Below, in pieces: positions 10,794 to 19,714 of a stretch of 30,431 nucleotides of DNA. The notes under the pieces were generated by a model, which was not told where the DNA came from, ran no database searches, and was given only the letters and a program-made list of their open reading frames with translations. Source of the stretch: a virus; IMG/VR virus record IMGVR_UViG_3300012005_000036, positions 1 through 30,431 of that record. One strand, written 5' to 3'. Every line of letters begins with the position of its first letter. Within the stretch, counting starts at the first letter, position 1. The position numbers were made by a program, and so were the translations under genes.

Positions 10794-10837
10794 GGATCGT
10801 AGCGGATAAACGCGCACCGTAGCGCACATTCGACACG
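10794..10837 (-). promoter_or_regulatory. 44-bp promoter/operator-like element, copy 2
   Basis: 84% identical over 44 ungapped bases to 19671-19714. Here the inner palindrome is imperfect (GTGCGCTAC against GGTGCGCGT), but both GTAGCG blocks remain 20 bp apart and the end reads CGCTACGATCC on the minus strand, with TACGAT as a possible -10. It ends 30 nt before the ATG at 10763, which has an AAGGGAG Shine-Dalgarno. It also lies 8 nt after the terL stop. Confidence 0.6.
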
Positions 10838-10845
10838 AAAGTTTG

Positions 10846-12327
10846 TCAGCGTCGACCTGCCGACCGTCGTCGCGCTACGGCCTGCTGACGGGCGGCACCG
10901 ACCCCGGCATCCGCATGCTTGTCCAGGAACAGGGCGGTCAGGGCATGAACAGCAGCGTCGATGCGGTCTGGGCTGTCACCCACCCCGGTCCATGCGGTCA
11001 TCTGGTCCTCCAGCGCCTGGAGGCGGCTGGTGCCGTCAGCTGCGTGGCAGATCTTACCCACCTGGTAGATCGCCGCCACGGACTCGGCCCGGATCCGCTT
11101 GGAGCGGTGCGCGTGCACCCGGGTGATCGGCGGCGCCAGCGCCGGCTGCCAGGACGGGTGCAGCCGGCGGTATGACGCGATCGCGGTCTGCCACGACGTT
11201 TGCAGGACGGTCAGGACCATCTCCCCGCCTTGGTTGTCCTCGATGACGATGCCGGTGCCGTTCCAGTCGAACACCGCATGCCAGACCGCGCACCCCCACT
11301 CCAACGGCGTCCCACGCAGGGACCGGTCGTCGACTACCCAGCCGATGCCTTCGGTGTCCATCGCGGTGACCACGATGCCCGTCTCATCACTGCTGGTTTT
11401 GGACGTGACAGCGGGGTCGACACCGACTAGGACCCGGGCCCACTTGTGCATGGCGTCGCCTGTGCGGCCACGGAACGCGCTGATCCACGACTCCTGCCAC
11501 ACGGTGCCCTCAGCCGGGGTGGGGCGTTGCTGGTACAGCGCAGCCCACGTCCGGGCCGGCGACGCCGCCTTGATCTTCTCCCACTGCGCCACGGTGCGCC
11601 GGCGCGCGCTGGCCATGAACTCCCCGAGCTGCCGGCCGAGCGGGTCGTCGGCGGGGTCCAGGGCTTCAGCTTGGGCGGGGATGGAGATGAGCTTCCACCG
11701 GGCTGCGTCCTCCTGCTGGAGGAGCCACCCGGCCAGGTCGTCCGGATGCCACCTGGTTTGGATCAGGACGACAGGGGCACCAGGGGCCAGACGGGTGGAG
11801 CCGGTGTCGGTCCACCAGTCGATCACGTTGCCGCGGATCGTGGGAGAGTCCGCGTCGGCCCGGTCCTTGATCGGGTCGTCGATGATCAGCAGGTCCACGG
11901 GGCGGCCGGTCAGTGCGCCACCGATACCGGCGGTGTACACGCCGCCTTCGTGGCCGTCGAGCTGCCATTCGTGCTGTGCGGCGAGGTCGTCGCGGATTCG
12001 CAGGCCGAGGGCTTTGCCGTGCTGGGTGATGGTGTCGCGGACGGCGCGGCCCCAACGCCTGGCGATGTTGGACTCGTAGGAGATGATCGCGATGCGGGTG
12101 TCTGGGTTGCGGTGCAGCAGCCACAGCGGGAACCACCTGGAACACCTGAACGACTTGCCCTCCTGGGGGGGCATGCAGATGATGAGCCGCGCGTCAGGGG
12201 TGGTGGCGGCTTCGACGAGTGCGGCGTCGATCAGGTCCAGTGCCGGGGTTTGGATGGTGCGCGGGTCGAACTTGACGGCGAGGTCGCCGGGGGTTGCGTA
12301 GGCAGCCCGCCAGTTCGGGTCGAACAT
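10846..12327 (-). CDS. terL: terminase large subunit
   Basis: 493 residues from the ATG at 12327. Walker A variant PPQEGKS at 53-59, Walker B with LLIIDDP around 146-152, a coupling-type motif QTRWHPDDLAGW, and nuclease motifs VGVDPAV, VIEDNQGGE and RIDAAVHAL, whose acidic residues would bind two metals. It packages DNA into the prohead and cuts it. No good Shine-Dalgarno precedes 12327. The upstream stop forms ATGA with an ATG at 12380 that ends after five codons (MTRLE, then TAG); one added base after codon 5 would join it to this frame with 18 more residues, so the true N-terminus may be frameshifted. Confidence 0.92.
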   Translation of the reverse strand: MFDPNWRAAYATPGDLAVKFDPRTIQTPALDLIDAALVEAATTPDARLIICMPPQEGKSFRCSRWFPLWLLHRNPDTRIAIISYESNIARRWGRAVRDTITQHGKALGLRIRDDLAAQHEWQLDGHEGGVYTAGIGGALTGRPVDLLIIDDPIKDRADADSPTIRGNVIDWWTDTGSTRLAPGAPVVLIQTRWHPDDLAGWLLQQEDAARWKLISIPAQAEALDPADDPLGRQLGEFMASARRRTVAQWEKIKAASPARTWAALYQQRPTPAEGTVWQESWISAFRGRTGDAMHKWARVLVGVDPAVTSKTSSDETGIVVTAMDTEGIGWVVDDRSLRGTPLEWGCAVWHAVFDWNGTGIVIEDNQGGEMVLTVLQTSWQTAIASYRRLHPSWQPALAPPITRVHAHRSKRIRAESVAAIYQVGKICHAADGTSRLQALEDQMTAWTGVGDSPDRIDAAVHALTALFLDKHADAGVGAARQQAVARRRSAGRR

Positions 12328-12376
12328 GCGGGCTGCGGCTTCGAGGAATCCTGTGGACAGGGCTACTCCAGCCGGG

Positions 12377-13144
12377 TCATGACGCGTTCCCGAAGTCGAG
12401 GACGCCTTGGCTCAGTCGCTTGGCTGTGACCTCACAGAACGCCTCATCCTGCTCGATGACGACCACGCGGCGACCCATCTGTTTGGCGGCGATGGCTGTT
12501 GTCCCACTGCCCGCGTAGGGGTCAAGGATCAGGTCGCCCTCATTCGTGTGCTGCTCGATGATGCGCGACATGAGCCAGAGCGGCTTCTGTGTCGGGTGCT
12601 CGCGAACCACCCGCCCAGAGCCCATAACGATCGGCCCCTCGAGAACGTTGACCGTGTAGCCGCCGCTATTCCACGTCCACCCGCCCTTGCCCTTGACCTG
12701 CCAGACGGCCATCTCGACCGCGCGGACGTAGAGCTTTCGGAACGCGGGTGTCGGGTTGGACTTGCGCCAGTAGATGAGGTTCCGGTGGTTCAGGCCTGAC
12801 GCCATGTAGTCACCGATCAGAAACTCACTCGTGAAGGCGATAAGCGAGCCACCTTCACGCAGTAGGCGGGTCGTCTCAGACAGGAACACATTGGGCATCC
12901 ACGTCCGGTCCCACGTGCCGAAGTCGCGCTGCACCTTGCGGGCGGTTCCGTCCTTGCGCTTGAGTGTGCCGAGCGTCGTGCCCTCGCGCCCTGATCGGTC
13001 ACCACCACTGACGTTGTATGGCGGGTCTGTAATGACCGCGTCGAATGGGCCTTCGAGCGCAGACAGGACGCCTGTTCCGCCGAAGGTGCCATCGGAGTCG
13101 CCGTGGTAGAGCGTCACGAATTCGTCTTGGTAGTAGGGCTTCAC
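12377..13144 (-). CDS. DNA amino-methyltransferase (N6-adenine or N4-cytosine)
   Basis: 255 residues with the catalytic DPPY at 40-43 and the AdoMet-binding DPYAGSGTT at 208-216, so the motif order is that of beta-class enzymes. HPTQKPLWLMSRIIEQ just before the AdoMet motif is typical of motif X. The DPPY form is compatible with N6-adenine or N4-cytosine; which one, and the target site, cannot be read. ATGA overlap with the terminase small-subunit-like gene. It may protect phage DNA from restriction or mark packaging sites. Confidence 0.9.
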   Translation of the reverse strand: MKPYYQDEFVTLYHGDSDGTFGGTGVLSALEGPFDAVITDPPYNVSGGDRSGREGTTLGTLKRKDGTARKVQRDFGTWDRTWMPNVFLSETTRLLREGGSLIAFTSEFLIGDYMASGLNHRNLIYWRKSNPTPAFRKLYVRAVEMAVWQVKGKGGWTWNSGGYTVNVLEGPIVMGSGRVVREHPTQKPLWLMSRIIEQHTNEGDLILDPYAGSGTTAIAAKQMGRRVVVIEQDEAFCEVTAKRLSQGVLDFGNAS

Positions 13145-18990: not shown

Positions 18991-19276
18991 GGCGCGGCCT
19001 CCGGGGTGCGTGCGCCTCGGAGGTCAGGTGCCAGCACGGCGGGTGGCACTGGACGCACTTGTACGCGCGGACCTCACGCCGGTTGGGGGACAGGCTGATG
19101 GTGTTGATGACCAGAGCGCGTTCGGCCTCAGGCTGGGTGGTGAAGCGTTTCTTCCCGCAGGGCTGGATGCGTTCGAGGAGGGTTTCGGCCAGGACCAGGT
19201 GGGAGTGGGTGGTGAGGTGTTCCAAGAGCGCTTCGGGCCCGTGGTGGGTGCGTCGGCAGACCGGGCAGCGCATCAC
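18857..19276 (-). CDS. zinc-finger protein with suspicious C-terminal end
   Basis: The GTG at 19276 (GTGA) or the ATG at 19273 (TGATG) overlap the upstream stop. The N-terminal 85 residues are convincing: CPVCRRTHHG at the start, LEHLTTHSH, then CGKKRFTTQPEAERAL, and YKCVQCHPPCWHLTS, a zinc-binding pattern common in small actinophage proteins (Cys-x2-Cys with WHLTS). After about residue 92 the frame reads Arg/Pro/His-rich sequence across the next gene for 134 nt, unlike all other junctions here. One extra base in the CCCC run at about 19001-19010 would end the protein at a TGA within the start of the next gene. Confidence 0.65.
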   Translation of the reverse strand: MMRCPVCRRTHHGPEALLEHLTTHSHLVLAETLLERIQPCGKKRFTTQPEAERALVINTISLSPNRREVRAYKCVQCHPPCWHLTSEAHAPRRPRHVDVGAARRLLPGHVTHRRGHQPPSALGRPRGRRRLIHGRARSA

Positions 19277-19635
19277 AGTGCGCGCCGGTTGTCAGCCTCG
19301 TTGAGGCTCTGGCGGACACTGGCGTCCCCCACCACGTCACTCGTCCACGTGCACTTGCCTGTGGTCTGGTCCCACACGATCAGCAACCCGCCAAGGTGCG
19401 GCATGATGCTGTCGTATGCCTGCCACACCTCGTCCACGCCCTGCCGGGGAGTGGCCTCGTTCCGCCCGTGCATGCGGCGGATCATGTGGTCAGCTTCGTT
19501 GATCTGATACACGGAGTTGACCGTGGTCACGGTGCGCACGTTTGGTAGTGGCTCCTGCGCGTCCTCAGCCGGCCGTGCACGAACGCGGTCGGCGTCGTCC
19601 TGGTCTGCTTCGTGGCGCTCGGCGAGGGTGGTCAT
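19273..19635 (-). CDS. hypothetical protein, first gene after the 44-bp element
   Basis: 120 residues. The ATG at 19635 has a good Shine-Dalgarno (AGGAG, 6 nt spacing) and lies 35 nt beyond the 44-bp element, so it is preferred over an in-frame ATG at 19785 that overlaps the VRR-NUC stop; translation from there would run through the element. The sequence is acidic at the N-terminus (ERHEADQDDADRVRARPAED) and globular later (VWQAYDSIMPHLGGLLIVWD). No family recognised. Probably the start of a separate middle-gene transcript. Confidence 0.72.
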   Translation of the reverse strand: MTTLAERHEADQDDADRVRARPAEDAQEPLPNVRTVTTVNSVYQINEADHMIRRMHGRNEATPRQGVDEVWQAYDSIMPHLGGLLIVWDQTTGKCTWTSDVVGDASVRQSLNEADNRRAL

Positions 19636-19670
19636 GGGTGGCTCCTGAGGCGCGGAGGGGTGTCCTGGTT

Positions 19671-19714
19671 GGATGGTAGCGGATAAGTGCGCTACGTAGC
19701 GCACAATGGACACG
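19671..19714 (-). promoter_or_regulatory. 44-bp promoter/operator-like element, copy 1
   Basis: An ungapped alignment with 10794-10837 gives 37 of 44 identical bases. It contains an 18-bp perfect palindrome at 19687-19704 (GTGCGCTACGTAGCGCAC) and a second GTAGCG exactly 20 bp away. Read on the minus strand it ends in CGCTACCATCC; TACCAT could be a -10 hexamer, placing the start of transcription about 28 nt before the next ATG. No clear -35 is seen, so an activator or dedicated factor may be needed. Confidence 0.6.

Follow-up and report, generated by a model that had tools for sequence, protein, structure and literature searches.

Dispersed arrays of three helically phased repeats in temperate actinophage-like viruses, candidate operators of an excisionase-type regulator

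Introduction

The IMG/VR virus record IMGVR_UViG_3300012005_000036, a 30,431-base stretch of DNA (66.8% GC; hereafter the window) with nearly all of its likely genes on the minus strand, carries two copies of a 44-bp element in front of genes whose products are unrelated (best BLASTP E-value 15). This raises the question of why a phage should hold nearly the same DNA at two such places, and which protein would read it. By sequence comparison, the pair are two members of a family, designated F1, that is dispersed in related viruses; the group consists of temperate, GC-rich (~67%), WhiB-carrying actinophage-like viruses. It is proposed, with about an even chance of being right, that F1 elements are the operator arrays of an Apl/Cox-like dual excisionase-regulator, overlapping a promoter at four of the five locations (A, B, D and E) where strong copies occur.

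Results and Discussion

The 44-bp pair belongs to a dispersed family

The two copies, whose reported coordinates are exact (Table 1), are identical at 37 of 44 ungapped positions. In an all-against-all scan of the 44-mers of the window a single other pair scored as well (positions 355 and 8020, which belong to a second genuine element family), and below these two the best pair had 33 matches; 12 first-order Markov resamples of the window gave best pairs with 30-33 matches, versus 37 for the real pair. As described in the original prediction, which read the copies as promoter-like elements, the GTAGCG blocks are 20 bp apart in both, copy 1 contains the perfect 18-bp palindrome GTGCGCTACGTAGCGCAC, and each copy is followed on the minus strand by an ATG with a Shine-Dalgarno sequence (ATG 19635, 35 nt past copy 1; ATG 10763, 30 nt past copy 2). 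Its view that both copies separate transcription blocks was not confirmed: the neighbouring genes are all on the minus strand, and copy 1 lies within a small open reading frame (ORF). This ORF begins at ATG 19785, is preceded by AGGAGG and overlaps at its start with the stop codon of a VRR-NUC-like gene, so that copy 1 does not mark a block boundary.

An exact pattern search recovered six further IMG/VR contigs beyond the window, and when the whole records G001-G006 and the window were searched at three or fewer mismatches, all seven contained one to three sites. A looser scan added the records L042 and L044 together with class-E sites of G001 and G004, and a matrix scan added the class-E site of G002; pattern matches in L041 and L043 were judged by eye to be chance and left out of the counts, because the second CGCTAC is missing and the contigs have no visible relation to the group. 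F1 thus comprises 19 strong sites at five distinct locations: eight of class A, three each of B and C, one of D and four of E. They amount to 16 different 44-bp strings and come from nine related IMG/VR records. All 19 follow the leftward operon direction, and large records hold three to four strong sites rather than tens of copies. In G003, G005 and G006 almost every called gene is 100% identical; these records stem from one phage or from near-identical phages and are not independent, so that the family represents about five to seven independent lineages; L042 and L044 originate from one and the same metagenome. Genes of the relatives were called by a crude script, and their starts and small genes are approximate. 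The original prediction had staked itself on conservation in close relatives and had suggested looking for further copies; F1 is kept in the related records, and the search extended it from two copies to nine records.

The phage of the window is interpreted through relatives that share up to 100% identity with it in their structural proteins (G002). Comparison of window positions 1001-7954 with G002 22416-29369 reveals strong mosaicism, with structural proteins 99-100% identical and many other genes at ~70-95%. Beyond IMG/VR, megablast of window positions 10001-30431 against public phages returned short stretches only, in 15 records, and the 151-bp copy-1 region, the repressor and the Cro-like protein introduced below, and the 244-amino-acid (aa) cargo protein encoded behind copy 2 had no match in 50,697 phage records. 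A search for prophages gave 0 matches to the F1 pattern in bacterial genome contigs and 65 stretches matched by a repressor-alignment scan, no relative being among them. The test set is therefore small: among the 50,697 public phage records and the bacterial genomes scanned, the group has no close relative. The literature searched yielded no description of F1, which does not prove that none exists.

Three head-to-tail units phased by one helical turn

At the core of F1 is CGCTACGnnnCGCnnnTnnCCGC, made up of three units that follow each other head-to-tail at intervals of one helical turn; the outer two are strong and the middle one is weak (CGCTACGtag / CGCacTTATC / CGCTACnAT; strong outer units 20 bp apart). 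Invariant in all 16 strings are CGCTACG, a CGC 10 bp after the first CGC, a T, and a CCGC whose CGC stands at +20. CG occupies positions 3, 13 and 23 in 21/21 sites examined, a count that is partly circular for the weaker classes I and R (see below), which had been found with the same matrix. Self-matching of five class representatives peaked at shift 20 (0.67; 40/60) and shift 10 (0.42; 46/110), whereas no other shift from 3 to 23 exceeded 0.36 (shift 5; 49/135). It is this phasing, and not the palindrome, that is conserved: the dyad matches at 9 of 9 positions in A, 7 in C and 6 in E, and is not kept in B and D (5 each), where the direct repeat phased by 10 and 20 bp is kept. An RNA element was also considered and rejected, Rfam being empty across the window at gathering thresholds and the class-A dyad, as a hairpin, being unkept in B and D.

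A TAnnnT hexamer closes the array at A, B, D and E (TACCAT, TACAGT, TACGAT and TATGCT, respectively), as expected of a -10 and in keeping with the earlier suggestion that the conserved end is a candidate -10; the first CGCTAC stands 17 bp upstream of it, so that the two fall at -35/-10 positions. No intrinsic terminator was found at copy 1 or copy 2, and no match to a sigma-70-like promoter (-35 and -10 consensus at proper spacing) was found around either. The missing -35 consensus, the constant place of TAnnnT and of the CGCTAC ahead of it, and the presence in the window of two WhiB genes and one gene for a multi-helix-turn-helix (multi-HTH) protein (23328-24119) would suit the proposal of the original prediction that F1 sites are mainly promoters whose repeats are recognized by an activator or sigma-like factor specific to the phage (WhiB, the multi-HTH protein or a host factor). 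However, C, I and R keep the array without a -10-like end, an early promoter such as B would hardly be expected to need a phage activator made later, and no observation ties WhiB to F1 sites; we consider this proposal unlikely.

The DNA, not a peptide, is conserved

Site A is located within a conserved gene of 50-54 aa, and copy 2 reads VRYGARLSATI in one frame, so that the similarity might be that of a short conserved peptide (VRYxAxLSATI). In the class-A gene core (codons 28-39), 9 of 12 codons are without nucleotide variation among six sequences, against 3/27 of the preceding codons, and a TTA leucine codon is kept in 6/6 of these genes; TTA makes up 20 of the 3941 leucine codons of the larger called genes. 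Class C is found where an XRE-type gene ends, in a reading frame unlike that of class A, sites B and E are intergenic, and copy 2 follows the terL stop in the frame in question, with no Shine-Dalgarno start visible by eye. As the frames of A and C differ, it is the DNA and not a peptide that is conserved; with the synonymous core positions frozen as well, we dropped the coding explanation as scarcely credible. The claim of the original prediction that the similarity reflects regulatory DNA rather than gene duplication is supported.

A different origin would be recombination, F1 sites being gene-exchange hot spots or landing pads that are alike as short shared boundaries and not through regulation. 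The genes beside A and D do vary among phages, as does the cargo at the junction between terL and the portal gene where D is found. Strictly invariant columns with helical phasing, fixed orientation and synonymous constraint are, however, unlike recombination boundaries; site B is intergenic and its region syntenic, and the differences among A, B, C and E preserve the array. Exchange as the source of the likeness is thus very improbable.

F1 arrays at the immunity switch and at attP

The immunity region, as read in G001, G002 and G005, has a plus-strand gene for a 152-aa HTH repressor followed by the integrase gene (int), and opposite to it a divergent leftward early operon that encodes a 110-aa Cro-like protein and an HTH_17 protein of 62-63 aa. 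Site B is intergenic between the divergent repressor gene and the early operon, and is conserved far above its surroundings. Site C is located inside the end of the Cro-like gene, in G002 14 nt ahead of the HTH_17 start codon.

A matrix trained on classes A-E only was then applied to find further arrays. It revealed arrays at the phage attachment site attP (class I) in 3/3 relatives with attP in the record (scores 30.4, 23.6 and 14.5) and plus-strand arrays before the repressor gene (class R; 28.6, 23.3 and 21.0); the top score in 120 resampled genomes was 17.9. Sites B and R are both present in 3/3 relatives whose record covers the switch region. The putative attP is a conserved stretch downstream of int, flanked on both sides by the 8-bp repeat CACTAGTT at a distance of 252-254 bp, which we take from general knowledge to be the 3' half of a tRNA (anticodon CGT, TTCGATT T-loop, ...CTCCA); the window contains no tRNA. 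The class-I array stands between the int-side CACTAGTT, a putative arm-type repeat, and the tRNA 3'-end core. In G002 the putative attP is at L023:6035-6300, and beyond its core lies a gene for a 122-aa HTH repressor-like protein; integration would part this gene from int, as it is on the far side of the core.

A small HTH_17 protein as the candidate binder

We regard the 62-aa HTH_17 protein (Xis/BldC fold) encoded by the phage itself as the likeliest binder; it would act both as a recombination directionality factor (RDF) and as a transcription regulator. In Pfam it matches HTH_17 (4.1e-15), and in PHROG it matches family 66, "excisionase and transcriptional regulator" (2e-10). Among solved structures its AlphaFold2 model (mean predicted local distance difference test 80) is closest to Xis of mycobacteriophage Pukovnik (4j2n; 0.8 A over 47 columns, VIA Z 9.1), followed by BldC (Z 8.2-8.6; 6amk, Z 8.2) and RdfS (8dgl, Z 7.5), with a phage P2 entry (4lhf, Z 6.2) and lambda Xis (Z 5.6) lower down. 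Foldseek E-values are modest (best 4.9e-03), as expected at 62 residues, and MerR-family chains come close behind, so that the fold by itself does not prove function; searched by sequence profile, solved structures gave no match for either the HTH_17 or the Cro-like profile. That an HTH_17 protein is also encoded by the phage of the window, whose record does not include an immunity region, we infer from the early operons of the three relatives. WhiB and zinc/HTH proteins, put forward in the original prediction, are not the first choice, since it is to the immunity and excision region (B, C, R and I), outside the window, that the best clues lead.

The main competitors are the XRE-type immunity regulators, that is, the 152-aa repressor or the 110-aa Cro-like protein, both of which have Cro/C1-type HTH matches (HTH_3 1.4e-10; HTH_31 2.9e-05). 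In lysogeny such a regulator would shut off the early promoter and stop transcription at A, C, D and E as well, forming a small stoperator or P1-c1-type network. Site B in the intergenic region between repressor and early operon, the weaker R at the same junction, C within the end of the Cro-like gene, the co-orientation of sites with transcription and the perfect class-A dyad all agree with this. Yet the dyad expected at every operator is not kept at B and D, where the direct repeat is, the arrays at attP, on the int side of the core, have no obvious task for a repressor, and head-to-tail phasing by 10 bp is unusual for XRE dimers. Because the places of F1 and its strong-weak-strong phasing are like those of known RDFs, we prefer an excisionase-type regulator, at about even chances, to the XRE proteins, which we hold to be possible but less probable.

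Several points weigh against an excisionase-type regulator. The two XRE-type proteins are encoded equally close to B and C, and class A has the perfect dyad that an XRE dimer would favour. Site C ends otherwise than A, B, D and E, without a -10-like hexamer, class D occurs in a single record, and the attP array of G001 is weak, its score of 14.5 being reached by 2.5% of resampled genomes and 0.017% of 300-bp regions. The window is a fragment that contains neither immunity region nor attP, and its model rests on relatives; attP and immunity sites are readable in G001, G002 and G005, whereas G000, G003, G004, G006, L042 and L044 are fragments. Furthermore, F1 is unusually sharp, and the known RDFs RdfS and Apl are reported to be relaxed in specificity (PMC7498355, PMC11963761).

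Proposed mechanism

The family, its positions, co-orientation and phasing, the DNA-level constraint and the fold similarity are results at the level of sequence, from which we infer the binder, the promoter activity and the direction of regulation. The HTH_17 protein would load cooperatively along one face of the DNA; at A, B, D and E the array would cover the -35/-10 of a promoter that ends in TAnnnT. Through sites B, C and R the protein would repress or modulate expression of the early operon, of its own gene and of the repressor gene, respectively, and at I it would remodel attP for excision. The two copies in the window would be promoters/operators through which the middle-operon gene at 19273-19635 and the acquired cargo gene at 10029-10763 come under shared control. 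One phage protein may therefore couple exit from the host chromosome to the turning on of other phage genes. More tentatively, an excisionase-type protein could run a genome-wide regulon consisting of the switch, the excisionase gene, attP, genes of the DNA-metabolism region (A and E) and new cargo (D), in which cargo genes are wired in by bringing or gaining an array and the array at E has been exchanged for another operator type in some lineages. If true, excision timing, early gene control and the wiring of gained genes would form one circuit. CGCTACGnnnCGCnnnTnnCCGC also provides a ready motif to spot this phage group and its switch region in metagenomes.

Location E and the terL-portal junction

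Location E is occupied by an F1 array in G001, G002, G004 and L044, and by the dyad TGTGGCGTGTGGCTTACCACA at the aligned place in the window and G005, with similar sequence downstream. This looks like a regulatory module exchanged on a kept promoter/leader. The dyad of the window belongs to a second element family of GTGGCGTG-type dyads, found on the minus strand at 349-402, 8014-8067, 9797-9828 and 15472-15499 of the window and also present in G001, G002, G004 and G005. Two such dyads, followed by CTCTAGCGTGAG with TAGCGT as a possible -10, precede the scaffold gene and a downstream gene of the structural region, and dyads of this type also occur upstream of the portal gene; they are possibly late-gene operators, promoters or terminators. 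In the neighbouring scaffold and portal genes themselves there is an exact 22-bp repeat, CCTTCACGGCCTCGATCGCCGC (7387-7408 and 8320-8341), likely a shared coding motif.

Copy 2 (class D) accompanies a two-gene cargo, an HTH/HNH-like gene and a 64-aa gene, at the terL-portal junction (window 9781-10846). The same junction holds a tRNA-Met(CAT) in G002 and L044 (L024:11286-11361; L044:4987-5062), a plus-strand ORF in G001, and a spacer of only ~100 nt in G004 and G005. Judged from these records, the junction is a cargo hot spot, and since its cargo differs by phage, D would either have arrived with the cargo or have arisen there. Around copy 1, the small class-A gene of the relatives is ended by a stop codon shortly past the element. 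The phage of the window reads on in frame into the gene behind, so that ATG 19635 would be an internal start. The name VRR-NUC for the nuclease gene upstream is presumptive and our own; its PHROG matches are to an endonuclease and a Holliday junction resolvase.

Table 1. Positions of F1 elements and associated features in the window
Feature	Position	Strand	Remarks
Copy 1, F1 class A, whole 44-bp element	19671..19714	-	Same site in 8 records, G000-G006 and L042
Copy 1, three tandem 10-bp units: CGCTACGTAG / CGCACTTATC / CGCTACCATC	19672..19701	-	Unit periodicity
Copy 1, putative -10-like hexamer TACCAT at array end	19673..19678	-	TAnnnT kept in A, B, D and E
ORF with copy 1: class-A gene (ATG 19785) in frame into downstream gene (ATG 19635)	19273..19785	-	
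VRR-NUC/resolvase-like nuclease gene, upstream of copy 1	19782..20129	-	phrog_93 endonuclease 1.2e-11; phrog_5702
Copy 2, F1 class D, between terL stop and cargo gene	10794..10837	-	This phage only
Copy 2, three tandem 10-bp units: CGCTACGGTG / CGCGTTTATC / CGCTACGATC	10795..10824	-	
Copy 2, putative -10-like hexamer TACGAT	10796..10801	-	
244-aa HTH/HNH-like cargo gene behind copy 2	10029..10763	-	Not at this site in relatives
terL	10846..12327	-	Stop 8 nt ahead of copy 2
Location E counterpart, other dyad element TGTGGCGTGTGGCTTACCACA	15472..15499	-	Similar sequence just downstream (CATGATCAG / TATGCTCAG)

Comparison with known systems

The closest parallels to F1 are found among the RDFs. 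Several of these, including the Xis proteins of lambda, Gifsy-1 and Pukovnik, bind head-to-tail tandem repeats one turn apart, and in the case of lambda Xis the specific contacts are fewer at X1.5, the middle site, than at X1 and X2 (PMC7498355). Dual excisionase/regulators are known to act at both the switch and attP, Apl binding attP and pR-pL, and also at the integrase promoters near att of P4 and KplE1 (PMC7498355). The arrangement of F1 is like that of Apl of coliphage 186 and Cox of P2, in which direct-repeat arrays one turn apart are present at attP and between the lytic and lysogenic promoters and a small HTH protein is encoded by the early operon (PMC7498355); in phage 186 there are seven operators at pR-pL and five at attP, compared with three-unit arrays at about seven places for F1. 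Unlike the 186 and P2 systems, F1 also occurs with genes of the middle operon, with a cargo gene and with the gene of the regulator itself, its sequence is much sharper, and its binder is a candidate put forward from the relatives.

Stoperators are asymmetric 13-bp sites that occur in tens of copies. By this definition F1 differs from them, having three phased units and three or four strong sites per genome plus attP. It nevertheless resembles the stoperators of Cluster A mycobacteriophages in that these are repressor sites spread over the genome (PMC9283540). The start-associated sequences (SAS) and extended start-associated sequences (ESAS) of Cluster K phages are likewise repeated, mostly co-oriented, placed before a subset of genes and kept between phages (PMC3203893). 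F1 differs from both in sequence and architecture, SAS being the 13-bp GGGATAGGAGCCC, found where translation starts, and ESAS an inverted repeat of 17 bp whose spacer varies, and by-eye comparison with the published SAS found no GGGATAGGAGCCC between either copy and its ATG (PMC3203893).

Two further members of the fold share traits with F1. The HTH_17 protein RdfS binds attP and its own promoter (PMC11963761), as the placement of I and C would have it, and BldC binds head-to-tail on direct repeats (PMC5859096), as in the F1 layout. BldC prefers AATTnnnnC repeats (PMC5859096) and RdfS is reported to show no consensus motif (PMC11963761), whereas the units of F1 are CG-rich.

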